Origin: Pseudomonadales bacterium
GTDB lineage: Bacteria > Pseudomonadota > Gammaproteobacteria > Pseudomonadales > Azotimanducaceae
Length of the DNA stretch: 38,673 nucleotides
Reading direction: 5' to 3'
NCBI GenBank assembly: GCA_029249645.1
Contig: JAQWWC010000043.1
Location: forward strand, 1 to 38,673
Shown in pieces: positions 3,150 through 10,730 of this stretch. The notes under the pieces are model-generated. The model did no database searches and was not told the origin of the DNA. It saw only the letters and a program-made list of their open reading frames with translations. Positions within the stretch are counted from its first letter, which is position 1. Every line of letters begins with the position of its first letter. The position numbers and the translations under genes were made by a program.

Positions 3150-4049
3150 ATGAGCCAAATCATCAACTACGGATCCTGCTGCATCGATCACGTTTTTCAA
3201 GTTCCGCATTTCGTTCGCGCAGGGGAAACCCTTAGCAGTACGGGTTACGCAATTTTTCCCGGCGGGAAAGGTCTTAATCAATCCATCGCGGTTGCCGAGG
3301 CAGGCTGCGCGGTGAATCATGTCGGCGCCGTGGGTGAGGATGGACGATGGCTTGCAGAACTTATGACCGCTCACGGGGTGGACATTACCCACCTCAGCAT
3401 TATTGACAGCCCAACCGGGCAGGCGATTTTACAAATCGATCCCCACGCTGAAAATGCGATCTTTATCTCGGGTGGCGCCAATTTAGCGGCCCATGAGCAC
3501 CTCATTGATGCAGCACTTGACCAAGCTACCGGCGATGAGATCTTCCTCATTCAAAACGAAACCAGCGGCAACGAAGCCGCTATCCGCCAAGCCAAGGCAA
3601 AAGGCTTGCAGATTGCTTTTAACATGGCGCCGATGAATGCAAGCGCCCGGGCCCTGCCTTTGGCACTTATCGATTACTTTATTATTAACGAAACCGAAGG
3701 CGAAGCTTTAACCGGCAAGAAAAAACCAACCGAAATTTGCGACGCCCTCTTGGAACAATACCCCAATAGCTCAGTGGTGCTCACCTTAGGCCAGGCGGGC
3801 GTTCTGTTCCGAAGCGCTGAACACAACCTATCGCAATCCGCTTACTCGGTTGAGGCGATTGACACCACCGGCGCGGGCGACACCTTTACCGGATATTTTC
3901 TCGCTACCTTGATAAAGACAAAGCAGGTTGATCTGGCGCTTCAGACTGCCGCCGCTGCGGCGGCGCTTTCGGTCACCCAACCGGGTGCCGCAACCTCAAT
4001 TCCAACATTACACGACGTCCATCAATTCCTAGCGACGCACGCGTCTTAA
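3150..4049 (+). CDS. Ribokinase / PfkB-family sugar kinase
   Basis: FPGGKGLNQSIAVAEAG N-terminal signature and DTTGAGDTFTGYF C-terminal PfkB signature. Confidence 0.88.
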   Translation: MSQIINYGSCCIDHVFQVPHFVRAGETLSSTGYAIFPGGKGLNQSIAVAEAGCAVNHVGAVGEDGRWLAELMTAHGVDITHLSIIDSPTGQAILQIDPHAENAIFISGGANLAAHEHLIDAALDQATGDEIFLIQNETSGNEAAIRQAKAKGLQIAFNMAPMNASARALPLALIDYFIINETEGEALTGKKKPTEICDALLEQYPNSSVVLTLGQAGVLFRSAEHNLSQSAYSVEAIDTTGAGDTFTGYFLATLIKTKQVDLALQTAAAAAALSVTQPGAATSIPTLHDVHQFLATHAS

Positions 4050-4493
4050 AGCCCCTTTAGGCTTGGCATTCCTACCGACAAAACTTTCGATCACGGTCTG
4101 CCCTGAACGGCGCCCTGAATGACTTGCGCCAAAGCCTGTAACAGGCAATGGGCAACCCAGCCTGCGAGCTTCAATTGCCCTGAATATATCAACCAGATCA
4201 GCACGACAGGACCCTAAAGCCAGCCCTATAGCGGCCGCCTTAGGCCTACCCAGAACGCCCACAAAACCAAAACTGAACAGTAGAAAGATAACAAGACGAG
4301 CAGAAAGGAAGGTTATAAATGAGGTCATTCTGGCAAAAACCGACCCCTCACTCTGCAGGCGCCTGCTCCGATGAGATTAACATTCCGCCGCGACCGCCCC
4401 CTGTACGCGCTCTAACCACGTGTAAGGGAAAAGACCCGACTTAGACGAACAGAGCGATGCGTGCGGGCAAATCCTAGGCCAAAGCGGCTTTAA

Positions 4494-4679
4494 TTAGCCC
4501 TCAGCCCCTGACCAACCCAGTGCCGCATCCACAGCATCTGTCGGCCAATTTTTTGGCGGCAATGCTGTCGCTCGAATGGTGCTCGCGTACAGAAAGCCTG
4601 CATCAAAGGGCACACAAGAACCCTTAGTGCCAAATTGCGAGAGCTCTGCCTCATCAGGCATTGGTAAGAACACTTTCAT
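4494..4679 (-). CDS. Small hypothetical protein (61 aa)
   Basis: ORF starting MKVFLPMPDEAELSQFG; strong Shine-Dalgarno AGAAGGAAGTCAATATG just upstream on the minus strand; no family recognised. Confidence 0.4.
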   Translation of the reverse strand: MKVFLPMPDEAELSQFGTKGSCVPFDAGFLYASTIRATALPPKNWPTDAVDAALGWSGAEG

Positions 4680-4886
4680 ATTGACTTCCTTCTAGTGGAC
4701 CAAGACATTAAACCCAAAATCATCGGAGTCAGCAGGAAGGAATCATGAATATTCGGGGCAGAACCCTGTAGAACTGATGGAGCCTGCTATAACATAGACC
4801 TCTGACGCGGAAAGTAGCCCTTCCACACTACCCGCGAGCGAATGAATGCTTTAACTTAATCAACACCCAGCGCTAGGAGGACTGAT

Positions 4887-5585
4887 ATGGCAAAAAAAAT
4901 CGTCATCGTTGAAGACGACATCGACCAAAGAAATAACTATATCGATGCCATCAGTAAAAAAGGATACCAAGTTCGCGGCTTTTCAAGCCGGACTGAAGCG
5001 CTGCTCGGGTTCGATAGCGAGCTCCCCGATCTTGTCATATTAGACATCATTCTTGGCGACGAGGTTGATGCCGGATTTGAGCTCTGCCGTGACCTTTTAG
5101 CGCGGTCTCCAAACCTACCGGTCATTTTTTTAACCGAACGCATTGCGGAAATCGATAAAATCAGCGGTCTGCGCTTGGGCGCCTGGGATTATTTACCAAA
5201 ACCGATTTCGCTGGATTACCTTTCAGAAAAAATTAGCTCCCTACTTCGAATTCATGAGGCCCGAAACCTAGCGGCTCAAGGCACCGCGGAAGCCAAAATA
5301 GTCGGCGACATGTCGATCGATCAAGACGCTTTGCTAGTCTCTTGGAAGAATCACCCCATTAATTTATCTGGAACCGAGTTTAGAATGCTGGCAAAACTCG
5401 TTCGCGTACCCGGTCATGCCGTCTCTTACGACACCCTAATGAATGCGACCATGCAGTCCTTGGTGACCAACAATACGATCAACACCCACATGCGAAATAT
5501 CCGCAAGAAGTTCGAAACTATCGATCCAGACTTCAAATGCATTAAGAGTGAGTATGGTTTTGGATACCGGTGGTCGACGCAATAA
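4887..5585 (+). CDS. OmpR-type response regulator, resembling PdsR (proteobacterial dedicated sortase system response regulator)
   Basis: Receiver domain (VEDD...LVILDI...PKPISL) plus winged-helix C-terminus (GTEFRMLAKLV...TINTHMRNIRKKF...SEYGFGYRW); SD AGGAGG; directly followed by a histidine kinase. Confidence 0.85.
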   Translation: MAKKIVIVEDDIDQRNNYIDAISKKGYQVRGFSSRTEALLGFDSELPDLVILDIILGDEVDAGFELCRDLLARSPNLPVIFLTERIAEIDKISGLRLGAWDYLPKPISLDYLSEKISSLLRIHEARNLAAQGTAEAKIVGDMSIDQDALLVSWKNHPINLSGTEFRMLAKLVRVPGHAVSYDTLMNATMQSLVTNNTINTHMRNIRKKFETIDPDFKCIKSEYGFGYRWSTQ

Positions 5586-5588
5586 CGC

Positions 5589-7742
5589 ATGGGCACCCTG
5601 ACCTATAAGGGCCCAAAGCTCGGAACCAAGCTTTTTATTCTGACCAGCTTTATTTTAGTGGTCATCCCTTGGTTTAGCTATCTCTACCTAAGCGAGATGG
5701 AAGAAATCCTGATTGATAGCCAAGCCAATGCGCAACTTCTCACGGCAGAAGGGATTTCAACGCTCTTAAATGGCCGATCCGATCTCTTTGACGAACTACC
5801 GATTAGCCCTGACGGCTACGAAAAACTCTATGCGCACCCACTCGAGCAACCGATTCGAATCGATGGCAAGAATTCAGACTGGGAAGACGTCCTAGATTTC
5901 AATGTTGGCTTTGGACAGGCGCCATCGCTTAACACCAGTGACGCAGGGGCTTTTAACCAATTCTACCTCGTGTTAGGCGAACACAAGGGGCAGGTCTATG
6001 CCTTAGTGCAGGTCCTGGATGATCAGATGATTTATCGTGACAACGACATTCTGAGACTCGATTTATCCGATCATATCCGAGTGACCTACACCGACCAGGC
6101 CGGGCAAACACAACAACTGGTCATCACTGCAACCGAAGAAGGCATCACAACCGCCTACAGAGTTGACCGGAACTGGCGCTATGCCCTTGATGGAGAAGCT
6201 GATAATCGGGTGCCGGGCGTCCTGCTAAAGACCGAAAATGGCTATGCTTTAGAGTTCCGGATTCCGCTTGATCAGCTCGGGCCAACTCGAAATTTTGGCC
6301 TTGCGGTCGTCGACGTAGACAACGATTCAACCCGTGCGATCGAGTCCATCACCGGGACCTTACCCTCAGGCGAGCGTGAAGCATTCGGATTGGTCTTACT
6401 CAAAACACCGGAGGTTTTAAGAATTATTGAGGGCCTGGGATACTCAGGCGCCAACATCCAAGTGATCGATTCCCAAAGCCGCATTCGCGCCGAGGTCGGC
6501 AGCTATTATTCTGATGACGCGGCCCAGGACAAAGGATCGGTCCGCGCTGGCTTTGGGCTCACCGCGATCAGTGCCTGGCTATTGGACCCATTTTATACAT
6601 TGGTCGAACAAACCTTGAACACAACTCGCATCGGGCAAGAGGACAATATCATTACAGCGGCGCTTGCCGGCGAACCAACCGTTGCCTATTTTATTTCACC
6701 CATGGACGGTGAAATTATCGTCGCGGCACACCCCATTATTGACGAGGGGGCAATATTAGGCGTGGTTGTTTTAAAACAAACCACCGATCGAATTCTAAAC
6801 CTACGTCGAGATGCCTTAAAACGGATCGTTAATTTTTCCGTCATCTCGGTGATTATTTTTGCAGGCATCATCCTCCTTTTTTCAGCTCGCTTAGCCCGCA
6901 GAATTCGCAGGTTGGGCAACGAAGCCACCGGCGTCATTGATCGACATGGTCGACTGACCTCGAGCCGATTAACCTCGGAGACAGACTCTGGCGACGAGCT
7001 CGGTGATTTGGCGCGCGGGATCTCGAACATGCTGACAAGACTCCACCAGCACAATCAGTTTCTCGAAAACATGCCGCGGACGCTTCGCCACGAAATCAAT
7101 AACCCGCTCAACACCCTCTCAACGTCACTCGATAATTTGGCGACTGAGCAAACCTCTGAGGGTCGTCAAAAGTACCTAGACAGCGCACGCCGCGGTCTCA
7201 ATCGCATCGGGCTAATCGTTCAGAACCTTGCCGATGCCGCAAATCTCGAAGAGGCTCTCATTGGCGATGATCTTGAATGTATTGACCTCAAGCTGCTGCT
7301 GCAATCCTATGTGAGCAACTGCAAGATGCTGCAACCTGGTCGAATATTTACCTTCAACGCACCAGAGGAGCCGCTGTTTGCCTGGATATGCGACTACCGA
7401 ATCGAGCAACTCCTAGACAAACTCATCGACAACGCCCTCGACTTTTCGGAAGTGGGCAGTACCATCTGCTTCGATCTAAAGGCTGTTGGTACGGACCTGA
7501 GCCTTGACATCACAAACGTCGGCCCAGGTATTCCAGAGAATTTGCTCACCAGCATTTTTGATTCGATGGTGACCGCCAGAGCGAATAATCCTGACAACCG
7601 TTTGCATTTCGGGATTGGTCTGTATGTTGTCCGGGTTATCGCGGACCACCATGGCGGTTCTGTCCACATCAATAATTTAACCGACCCCTCTGGGGTTCGA
7701 GTTGGTGTCACCCTGCCTAGAGCCGCGCCGCACGCAACCTAA
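5589..7742 (+). CDS. Sensor histidine kinase with large N-terminal extracytoplasmic CBM9-like domain, resembling PdsS
   Basis: N-terminal TM, LYAHPLEQPIRIDGKNSDWEDV sensor region, second TM (IISVIIFAGIILLFSARLARR), HAMP-like linker, H-box LRHEINNPLNTLSTSL, ATPase N/G boxes (LIDNALDFS, FGIGLYVVRVIADHHGG). Confidence 0.85.
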   Translation: MGTLTYKGPKLGTKLFILTSFILVVIPWFSYLYLSEMEEILIDSQANAQLLTAEGISTLLNGRSDLFDELPISPDGYEKLYAHPLEQPIRIDGKNSDWEDVLDFNVGFGQAPSLNTSDAGAFNQFYLVLGEHKGQVYALVQVLDDQMIYRDNDILRLDLSDHIRVTYTDQAGQTQQLVITATEEGITTAYRVDRNWRYALDGEADNRVPGVLLKTENGYALEFRIPLDQLGPTRNFGLAVVDVDNDSTRAIESITGTLPSGEREAFGLVLLKTPEVLRIIEGLGYSGANIQVIDSQSRIRAEVGSYYSDDAAQDKGSVRAGFGLTAISAWLLDPFYTLVEQTLNTTRIGQEDNIITAALAGEPTVAYFISPMDGEIIVAAHPIIDEGAILGVVVLKQTTDRILNLRRDALKRIVNFSVISVIIFAGIILLFSARLARRIRRLGNEATGVIDRHGRLTSSRLTSETDSGDELGDLARGISNMLTRLHQHNQFLENMPRTLRHEINNPLNTLSTSLDNLATEQTSEGRQKYLDSARRGLNRIGLIVQNLADAANLEEALIGDDLECIDLKLLLQSYVSNCKMLQPGRIFTFNAPEEPLFAWICDYRIEQLLDKLIDNALDFSEVGSTICFDLKAVGTDLSLDITNVGPGIPENLLTSIFDSMVTARANNPDNRLHFGIGLYVVRVIADHHGGSVHINNLTDPSGVRVGVTLPRAAPHAT

Positions 7743-7753
7743 GCCTTGGCGAT

Positions 7754-8275
7754 TTAATTCACGATTTTAAGATTTTGTTGCGCCAAAGGGTCGACTGACG
7801 CTTGAATTCGCCAATCGGCTTTCGTCGCTGCCGAATGCAAAATTGCCGTGATCGATACTGCAATTTCATGATTAAAGATTAGGTTAAGTCCCTCACCCGT
7901 CTTGGGAAGCAACGATACGTGAAGTTGATCTGCTTTCATTCGATAGGTCAACTTGTAGGCCAGTTGGTATTCTTGCGGCGCGCTGACTTCAGCTTCGGCG
8001 TCACCGGCAGCAGCAAACGGCGTCTCAAAATTTGCCCGGTCCAGCGCTTGACGCTCTTTATAGTCTTGAACATCCTGCCGATCGGCCGCCGAAACCAGCG
8101 TTCCCACGTCAGGATCGGCGGCGGCGTACTGCGCAAGCGCTTTTAACAACAGCTGTAAATACCGCCGAGTGAGTAAGATGCCGTGGGCTTGCGCACCATC
8201 AGTTCCCACCCGAAGCAACAGCCGATCTTCTTCGGCATCGTATTTTGCTTGTATTTGCCGAATCGAGGCCATAAT
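7754..8275 (-). CDS. Conserved hypothetical protein, divergent from the ArsR-methyltransferase gene
   Basis: Starts MASIRQIQAKYDAEEDRLLLRVGTDGAQAHGILLTRRYLQLLLKAL; SD-like AAGGAAGGAGC upstream; shares the upstream intergenic with the ahcY regulator. Start refined from 8278. Confidence 0.6.
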   Translation of the reverse strand: MMASIRQIQAKYDAEEDRLLLRVGTDGAQAHGILLTRRYLQLLLKALAQYAAADPDVGTLVSAADRQDVQDYKERQALDRANFETPFAAAGDAEAEVSAPQEYQLAYKLTYRMKADQLHVSLLPKTGEGLNLIFNHEIAVSITAILHSAATKADWRIQASVDPLAQQNLKIVN

Positions 8276-8292
8276 CAATCGGCTCCTTCCTT

Positions 8293-8360: not shown

Positions 8361-8367
8361 TAGCTTG

Positions 8368-9342
8368 ATGAAAGCCCAACCTTTACCAACCCAGAACGCG
8401 CCAGCGGCCATCCTCACGTTGTCGAAAGCCTTCGCCGATCCCTTGCGCCTAGACGTCCTGCGACTGCTCCAAGACAACTCTTTCGGGGTCATGGAGCTTT
8501 GTCACATTACCACGACACCCCAATCAGGCATGAGCCATCACTTGAAAATTCTCACTGGGTGCGGTCTGCTTGAAACGAAGCGTGAAGGTACGTCCATATT
8601 TTATCGTCGGGCGATGTTACCGCAGAACGGTTTCTTGAGCGATCTGACAAAAACCTTCTTAGACACGCTTGACCAAACAGCCTTGCCGCCGGCACTACTC
8701 AAAACGCGTCAGGAGATCTATGACGACCGCAGCCAACAGTCGGCTGATTTTTTTAAGCGCTGCGCAGCACAACTGAAGGAAAATCAAGATCTTGTCGCAT
8801 CCTTTGAGCACTACTCAGGGTGTGTGGGGGACCTGATCCGGAACGAAAACCTTCCAAAAGAAACCCGCGTTATTGAAATCGGCGCGGGCGAAAGCCCTTT
8901 ACTCACAACCCTTTCTGAGACCTTTAAGTCCGTCCTCGTCGTGGATAACTCGGACGAAATGCTGATGAAGACCAAAGCAAGAGCGCACCAAGAGCAGCTT
9001 AAGAACGTGCACTTCATGCTTCAAGATTACGACAGCCTCACACTTGATTTCCCGGCAGACCTGCTGGTCTGCAACATGGTGCTCCATCACTTACCCGCGC
9101 CTGCCGCCTTTTTCCAAAGAGCAGCCGGGCTCATCAAGCCAAAGGGCAAGCTACTTTTGATTGACCTTTGCCCACACCAACAAGACTGGACCCGGGATAT
9201 TTGCGGGGACCTTTGGCTTGGATTCGAACCTGACGATCTCGACCTTTGGGCCACCGCATCTGGATTTCAGCGCGGGCAAGGTGCGTTTCTTGGATTAAAA
9301 AATGGTTTTCAACTACAGCTGAGAATTTTCACAGCACATTAA
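8368..9342 (+). CDS. ArsR-family regulator fused to a SAM-dependent methyltransferase domain (SahR-like)
   Basis: N-terminal ArsR winged helix ([18 protein letters not shown]...[29 protein letters not shown]); C-terminal methyltransferase ([17 protein letters not shown]...[13 protein letters not shown]); directly upstream of ahcY. ATG at 8368; the track start at 8365 is TTG. Confidence 0.85.
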
Positions 9343-9368
9343 CTTTAACGACAACCTTAGGAGTCATA

Positions 9369-10730
9369 ATGACCGATTATAAAGTAGCAGATATTAGCCT
9401 GGCCGAATTCGGCCGAGCAGAAATCGAACTGGCTGAAGCAGAAATGCCTGCATTGATGAAGCTCCGAGCCAAATATCAAGACGAGCAACCCTTAAAAGGT
9501 GCCAAAGTACTGGGCTGTATCCACATGACGATTCAGACCGCCGTACTCATTGAAACGTTGGTTGATTTGGGCGCAGAAGTGCGGTGGTCGTCTTGCAACA
9601 TTTTTTCAACGCAAGATCATGCTGCCGCCGCAATCGCAGCCAGTGGTATTGGGGTTTTTGCGTGGAAAGGCCAGACCGAGGAAGAGTTTCTGTGGTGCAT
9701 TGAACAAACCATCTTAAAAGACGGCAAGCCTTGGGATGCCAATATGATCCTAGATGATGGCGGCGACCTGACGGAAATGGTTCATAACAAATACCCCGAC
9801 CTCTTAGCCGCCATCCACGGTATTACCGAAGAAACCACCACAGGGGTCCACAGACTTCAAGAAATGCTGAAGGCTGGCGAACTCAAGGTCCCAGCCATCA
9901 ACGTCAACGACTCTGTTACCAAATCCAAAAACGATAACAAGTACGGTTGTCGACACAGCCTGAACGACGCAGTCAAGCGCGCAACCGACATGCTCATGGC
10001 GGGTAAAAAGGCTTTGGTTATCGGATATGGTGATGTTGGCAAGGGCTCCGCTCAGAGCTTGCGCCAGGAAGGTATGATTGTCCGCGTTACGGAAATCGAC
10101 CCCATTTGCGCCATGCAAGCCTGCATGGATGGCTATGAAGTCGTGTCCCCCTATATCAACGGCATCAACACCGGCAAAAAAGAAGATATCGATCTGCGAT
10201 TGATGCAGGGCACCGATATGATTGTGACCTGCACCGGGAACGTTAATGTCTGCGATGAAAACCTGTTGGCAACCGTTGCGAGCAACGCGGTCATTTGTAA
10301 CATTGGACACTTTGATACTGAGATCGATACGCAGTTCATGCGCGACAACTGGCGCTGGCAAGAGGTTAAACCTCAAGTTCATAAAATTTTCCGAAGCGAT
10401 GATCCAAGCGACTACATTTTACTGTTGTCGGAAGGCCGCTTGGTCAACCTTGGCAATGCAACAGGTCACCCGTCACGCATTATGGACGGCTCTTTCGCGA
10501 ACCAAGTATTAGCGCAGATGTATCTGTTTGAGCGCGCATGGGCGAGTCACGACCCGATGCAGCGGCAACCCATAACGGTTGAAGTCTTGCCCAAAGCACT
10601 CGATGAAGAGGTCGCACAATATATGGTCGAGGGTTTTGGCGGGACGATTACCCGACTAACTCAAAAGCAAGCCGATTACATCAACGTGCCTGGAGAAGGG
10701 CCTTTTAAATCAGAAGAATACAAGTACTAG
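9369..10730 (+). CDS. ahcY: Adenosylhomocysteinase (S-adenosyl-L-homocysteine hydrolase)
   Basis: [47 protein letters not shown]-binding motif, C-terminal [19 protein letters not shown] before the ATG at 9369. The track ORF start at 9246 overlaps the previous gene. Confidence 0.97.

Follow-up and report, generated by a model that had tools for sequence, protein, structure and literature searches.

What does a two-component system that resembles the regulators of a dedicated sortase system do in a genome in which no sortase is detected? The question is raised by a gene pair in the 38,673-nt stretch of Pseudomonadales DNA analyzed here, which we call the window. A PdsR-like OmpR/PhoB-family response regulator (RR; REC plus winged helix) of 232 aa is encoded at 4887..5585 on the + strand and is followed, with 3 bp between its stop and the next start, by a PdsS-like sensor histidine kinase (HK) of 717 aa at 5589..7742 on the + strand. 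Both ORFs are intact and lie where a sequence-only reading of the window had placed them. That reading likened the pair to PdsR/PdsS and proposed an orphaned sensor, a re-purposed one, or one controlling a distant locus. In our judgment the pair is quite probably a complete and selected system of the PdsRS lineage that lacks the sortase module, working as a sortase-independent, autoregulated envelope-sensing paralogue.

The likeness to PdsR/PdsS is borne out by a common tree, the full-length kinase domain plan, the RR-HK gene order, and a related operator 5′ of the RR with the same 10/11-bp repeat spacing. The best NCBIfam match of the RR is TIGR03787 (241.5 bits; runner-up CreB, 148.4) while the HK matches TIGR03785 best, with 482.2 bits across residues 14-710 (runner-up CreC, 137.2). 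Unlike named members, the RR and HK fall below the curated cut-offs of these families (335.7 and 612.2 bits). A kinase score below the TIGR03785 cut-off had been named beforehand as evidence against the assignment; this is formally the case, yet two sortase-linked sister kinases, L156 and L157, also fall short (537 and 530 bits), so the cut-off cannot split sortase-linked from sortase-free members. CreBC, the second-best family for both proteins, is similar in the transmitter and juxtamembrane region, but CreC matches only residues 377-712 of the HK, and both proteins score below the CreB (148.4 vs 273 bits) and CreC (137.2 vs 356 bits) cut-offs. Pfam domains are Response_reg and Trans_reg_C in the RR and HAMP (sub-threshold), HisKA, and HATPase_c in the HK. 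The RR retains D53 and K105, and the HK retains H501, N615 of the N-box, and its G-boxes; from these conserved residues, the HK would phosphorylate the RR at D53.

Domain searches, hydropathy, motifs, and structure prediction (AF2 with Foldseek) give the HK layout as a transmembrane segment (~14-33), a periplasmic CBM9-like domain, a membrane-proximal Cache/PAS domain, a second transmembrane segment (~412-434), HAMP, HisKA (with H501), and HATPase_c. The AF2 model of the periplasmic region, built from 34 relatives, is of modest confidence (mean pLDDT 62). Its top Foldseek matches are CBM9 modules, 1i82 (E 4.7e-4, prob 1.00) and 7nwn (6.1e-4); sensor domains of the PAS/Cache kind, those of CitA and WalK among them, match at higher E. 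The fold search thus backs the CBM9-like sensor proposed from the sequence, though the window HK stays short of Pfam CBM9_1, which is above threshold solely in the canonical kinase L163; a PDB sequence search with the sensor gave nothing beyond a weak xylanase match (E 0.4). The membrane-proximal Cache/PAS fold is shared with WalK-type kinases, as indicated by Foldseek and a weak Pfam Cache_WalK match, and the beta sandwich upstream of it is similar to that of CBM9 carbohydrate-binding modules, with sugar binding only predicted. WalK is not known to combine CBM9 and Cache in one periplasmic sensor. A cell-envelope or carbohydrate cue would be the most likely signal for such a kinase.

The absence of a sortase and an LPXTG/VIT-VWA target, noted earlier for the 38-kb window, extends to the entire host assembly (3.71 Mb in 364 contigs, 95.5% complete). 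PF04203, TIGR03784, and TIGR03788 gave no match at E<=0.001 in the assembly, and TIGR03789 (PdsO) gave only generic OmpA domains there, the best at 68 bits against a cut-off of 152.2. A misassembled window was rejected, because the gene order is identical in relatives whose contigs are long (L043, 559 kb; L057, 159 kb). The pair is flanked by a kinase of the ribokinase family, a gene for an ArsR/methyltransferase, ahcY, and tesB; the sequence-only reading had named a ribokinase and the ahcY regulon. The upstream neighbor, a PfkB/ribokinase-family sugar kinase (3150..4049, + strand; TIGR02152 217 bits, below cut-off), is kept in part of the window's branch of relatives. Downstream and convergent with the HK lies a conserved hypothetical gene of 174 aa, h174 (7754..8278, - strand), which gave no match in Pfam and NCBIfam searches and is a neighbor in 36/53 loci. 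At 8365-10730, a gene joining an ArsR-type HTH to a methyltransferase stands immediately before ahcY and recurs in much of the branch; the two ORFs listed for this interval overlap, probably because the first possible ahcY start lies too far upstream.

The statement that kinases of this type are normally encoded beside a sortase does not hold for the wider family. We surveyed 370 class-wide genomes, calling the kinase by TIGR03785 at E<=1e-80 and the sortase by TIGR03784, and found the kinase in 72 and the sortase in 50, with a strong association between them (odds ratio 27, Fisher p 1e-21). However, 34 of the 72 kinase genomes lack the sortase, and it lies within ~15 kb of the kinase in only 25. 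Even among the 38 kinases above the TIGR03785 cut-off, 21 come from genomes that lack the sortase and only 8 have it beside them, and on the tree the label "linked" requires 12 changes among 89 kinases and 9 among 52. The premise of a sortase neighborhood is too narrow for the family, and for many members the equivalog name that automatic annotation assigns, dedicated sortase system kinase/regulator, is wrong or too restrictive.

The same kinase type was found at 52 loci in named marine Gammaproteobacteria MAGs (Pseudomonadales, OM182, K189A, and others), with no sortase at any of them within the DNA stretch fetched per locus. In the window's own family, 12/12 sampled genomes carry the kinase and 1/12 a sortase. 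Most loci of this branch have the gene order RR-HK-h174-ArsR/MT-ahcY-tesB, preceded in some by the sugar kinase; a second subgroup has an AAA_28 protein upstream and a metallo-beta-lactamase downstream. On the tree, the branch together with f202 kinases (G497) is sister to the sortase-linked kinases L156, L157, and L161, and the whole group of branch, sortase-linked sisters, and f202 kinases has support of 100/100 (bootstrap/SH-aLRT). A clade of branch and sisters that excludes the f202 kinases was rejected by an AU test (p 0.0017), since these kinases nest inside it. The two f202-type kinases of G497 (L230 and L231) pair on the tree just outside the window branch, and no sortase was found with them.

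With sortase-linked kinases as the sister clade, the window pair could be a recent orphan, the remnant on its way out of a lineage that has lost its sortase and target. The branch RR-HK, however, is under strong purifying selection: dN/dS among close relatives is 0.04-0.06 for the sensor and transmitter alike and lower for the RR, so the sensor is constrained as much as the transmitter. Because of this selection a recent orphan is disfavored, and conservation across the 52 loci and family RRs 64-82% identical to that of the window argue in the same direction. We regard recent loss as unlikely, and the earlier suggestion of an orphan, taken to mean that the sortase was lost recently and locally, does not fit a branch whose loci all lack a linked sortase and are under purifying selection.

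We identified a candidate PdsR-type operator/promoter at 4743..4790 (+ strand), consisting of imperfect 11-bp direct repeats ATGAATATTCG GGGCAGAACCC TGTAGAACTGA TGGAG with a TATAAC -10-like element at its very 3′ end; a sigma-70 consensus scan of the gap between rbsK and the RR detected nothing. This gap (4050-4886) is ~840 bp without a convincing gene, and the operator lies in its last 150 bp; the window gave no Rfam match. De novo EM discovery on RR-upstream DNA from 46 branch loci yielded the motif GTGAAAGTTCn-CTGAACAATCG-TGGAGAAACGA-TGAA, with a log-likelihood of 438 vs ~80 for shuffled sequence. In relatives, 26 copies of the operator align without gaps and the TGAA/TG.A/TGA steps are invariant. 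A profile of the branch operator (R1) scanned over 18 whole genomes found a single strong site per genome, in each case 5′ of the genome's own RR. In the host genome this is 4743-4790 (E 1.2e-6), the sole site at E<=5 among the best 150 of 659 candidates; given that limit and an assembly of 364 contigs at 95% completeness, the scan could have passed over a distant target. All secondary sites in the 18 genomes had E>=0.02, 26 of the 32 examined were inside ORFs, and none was a convincing shared upstream site. Conservation, uniqueness, and covariation with the recognition helix suggest that the RR would bind the tandem 11-bp repeats at 4743-4790 and control its own operon, and the site at any further direct target would be weaker than the full operator. 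The window branch is old and marine, and its regulators seem to act mainly on their own genes.

The window operator itself is a weak copy (30 bits vs 50 in relatives), and three relatives of the window (L014, L015, and L017) have no recognizable operator 5′ of the RR with the recognition helix unchanged; in these relatives autoregulation may have disappeared or been relocated. Autoregulation may therefore be fading in the window's group, and such degenerate or missing operators are the second point in favor of a recent orphan. Three weak secondary matches from different genomes (L259, L311, and L312) lie in one conserved neighborhood with orthologues in common, apparently cytochrome-oxidase assembly genes, but at differing positions; they are probably chance.

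Canonical PdsR relatives show how a wider regulon of this type can be recognized. Their RR-upstream motif, whether or not the locus is sortase-linked, is TGAtgAATTgTGGCaAAAntaTGG, with the same 10/11 spacing as the branch operator. A matrix trained on canonical RR-upstream DNA only scored >14 bits just 5′ of a target or sortase gene at 8 of 9 kinase-remote sortase loci (L191-L199), where the background is 20 hits of this strength in 1.69 million scanned positions. The same matrix found no site at two sortase loci of kinase-less genomes. When a calibrated profile (R2) was run over 205 kb of kinase-remote sortase loci, six hits reached E<=1, and all six precede target-sortase genes. Genome-wide, the sortase-operon site ranks best or second-best in G041, G122, and G302, is the best listed for G252, and is among the better ones in G265. 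This pattern supports control of distant sortase operons by PdsR in canonical genomes, as predicted from the operators. The TGGC-type signature can therefore detect a regulon, and it predicts genes under PdsR-type regulators, including chromosomally distant sortase operons.

These unlinked target-sortase operons make it conceivable that the window pair regulates in trans a sortase/target operon elsewhere that is hidden by assembly gaps. Since canonical operators do precede such distant operons, it is informative that the host genome shows no second one: among the best 150 of 659 candidates no second operator was detected, nor was a sortase or target in the assembly, and TIGR03784 had no match whatsoever in 22/30 other branch genomes. 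We consider trans control of a hidden sortase operon very improbable. The earlier idea of control over a distant locus finds support in several canonical relatives; in the host genome no sign of it was found, the RR's own operator being the sole site among the best 150 of 659 candidates.

The window-type pair differs from canonical members in its neighbors, its operator, and the helix that is predicted to read it. The TGGAGAA-type operator is found in the branch and its sortase-linked sisters, and the TGGC-type in canonical members. The recognition helix, VTNNTINTHMRNIRKKF in the window RR (5463-5513), is VTNNTINTH in the branch, where it is invariant in most members, vs VDDSTITSH-type in canonical members; the sortase-linked sisters have NNTINTH in two cases and NNTVNTH in the third. 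A TIGR03784 sortase above cut-off is present in 7 of the 30 branch genomes searched. The sortase loci of these seven have their own RR and/or HK in 4/7, in each case together with a TGGC-type site, a TGGC-type or related site in 5/7, and a TGGAGAA-type site at E<=1 in 0/7. G646 carries both a canonical locus of sortase, target, PdsO, RR, and HK (L215) and a window-type RR-HK (L216), and G586 has a window-type pair (L217) plus a canonical PdsO, RR, and HK (L218). From this coexistence and the lack of TGGAGAA at sortase loci, the window-type system appears not to serve the sortase. Because most of these loci carry a TGGC-type or related site, and none a TGGAGAA-type one, the window system would be an insulated, sortase-independent paralogue and not a sortase regulator that has been displaced, which is a further argument against trans control of a hidden sortase operon. 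Of the terms first proposed, "re-purposed" fits, as the branch would be independent of the sortase and has an operator variant of its own. With two natural paralogous regulators whose helix and operator differ in step, insulation of duplicated two-component systems from each other becomes directly testable.

The nearest other families, CreB and CreC, point to a further explanation that overlaps with the sortase-independent envelope sensor favored above and adds named targets. Here the pair would be a CreBC-like envelope-stress system with the sortase as an optional regulon member and targets such as OmpA-like lipoproteins or alpha-2-macroglobulin. The classical CreB target is creD. In G265 the top canonical PdsR-type site genome-wide (C10:10725-10765; L275, L298) is just 5′ of creD (PF06123, 482 bits), the second-best precedes an OmpA-domain lipoprotein gene (L287), and another precedes a predicted lipoprotein gene (L297). 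In G142, a sortase-free genome with a kinase above cut-off, a strong site (C25:2248-2286; L286, L296) lies 5′ of a bacterial alpha-2-macroglobulin gene. The creD, OmpA-lipoprotein, and alpha-2-macroglobulin sites each come from one genome. Together they suggest that the canonical PdsR regulon may be one of envelope maintenance. This is in line with a review which, citing another paper, reports a link of S. algae pdsS to pdsO, membrane integrity, and beta-lactam resistance (PMC12114352). The PdsR/PdsS literature is thin, and the phrase 'proteobacterial dedicated sortase' was absent from the literature searched.

Several observations weigh against named CreBC-like targets. The host genome has no creD, and among the other genomes tested only the creD of G265 has an operator, so creD was rejected as a common target. 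CreB boxes (TTCAC-N6-TTCAC, <=2 mismatches) show no excess in the window (22 vs 36 expected), and no second operator was found in the host genome among the best 150 of 659 candidates. We hold the CreBC-like explanation with named targets as a tentative one, somewhat short of even. An equally tentative extension is that the ancestral job of TIGR03785/TIGR03787 systems was CreBC-like envelope sensing, with the sortase gained or lost repeatedly as a regulon member and the window branch arising as an insulated paralogue in which helix and operator changed together. If true, the co-changed helix and operator would let both systems run in one cell without crosstalk.

Further upstream in the window, at 2039-2983, we also observed a protein of the metallo-beta-lactamase superfamily that resembles PqqB (108 bits, short of that family's cut-off) and adjoins a GltS-like symporter.
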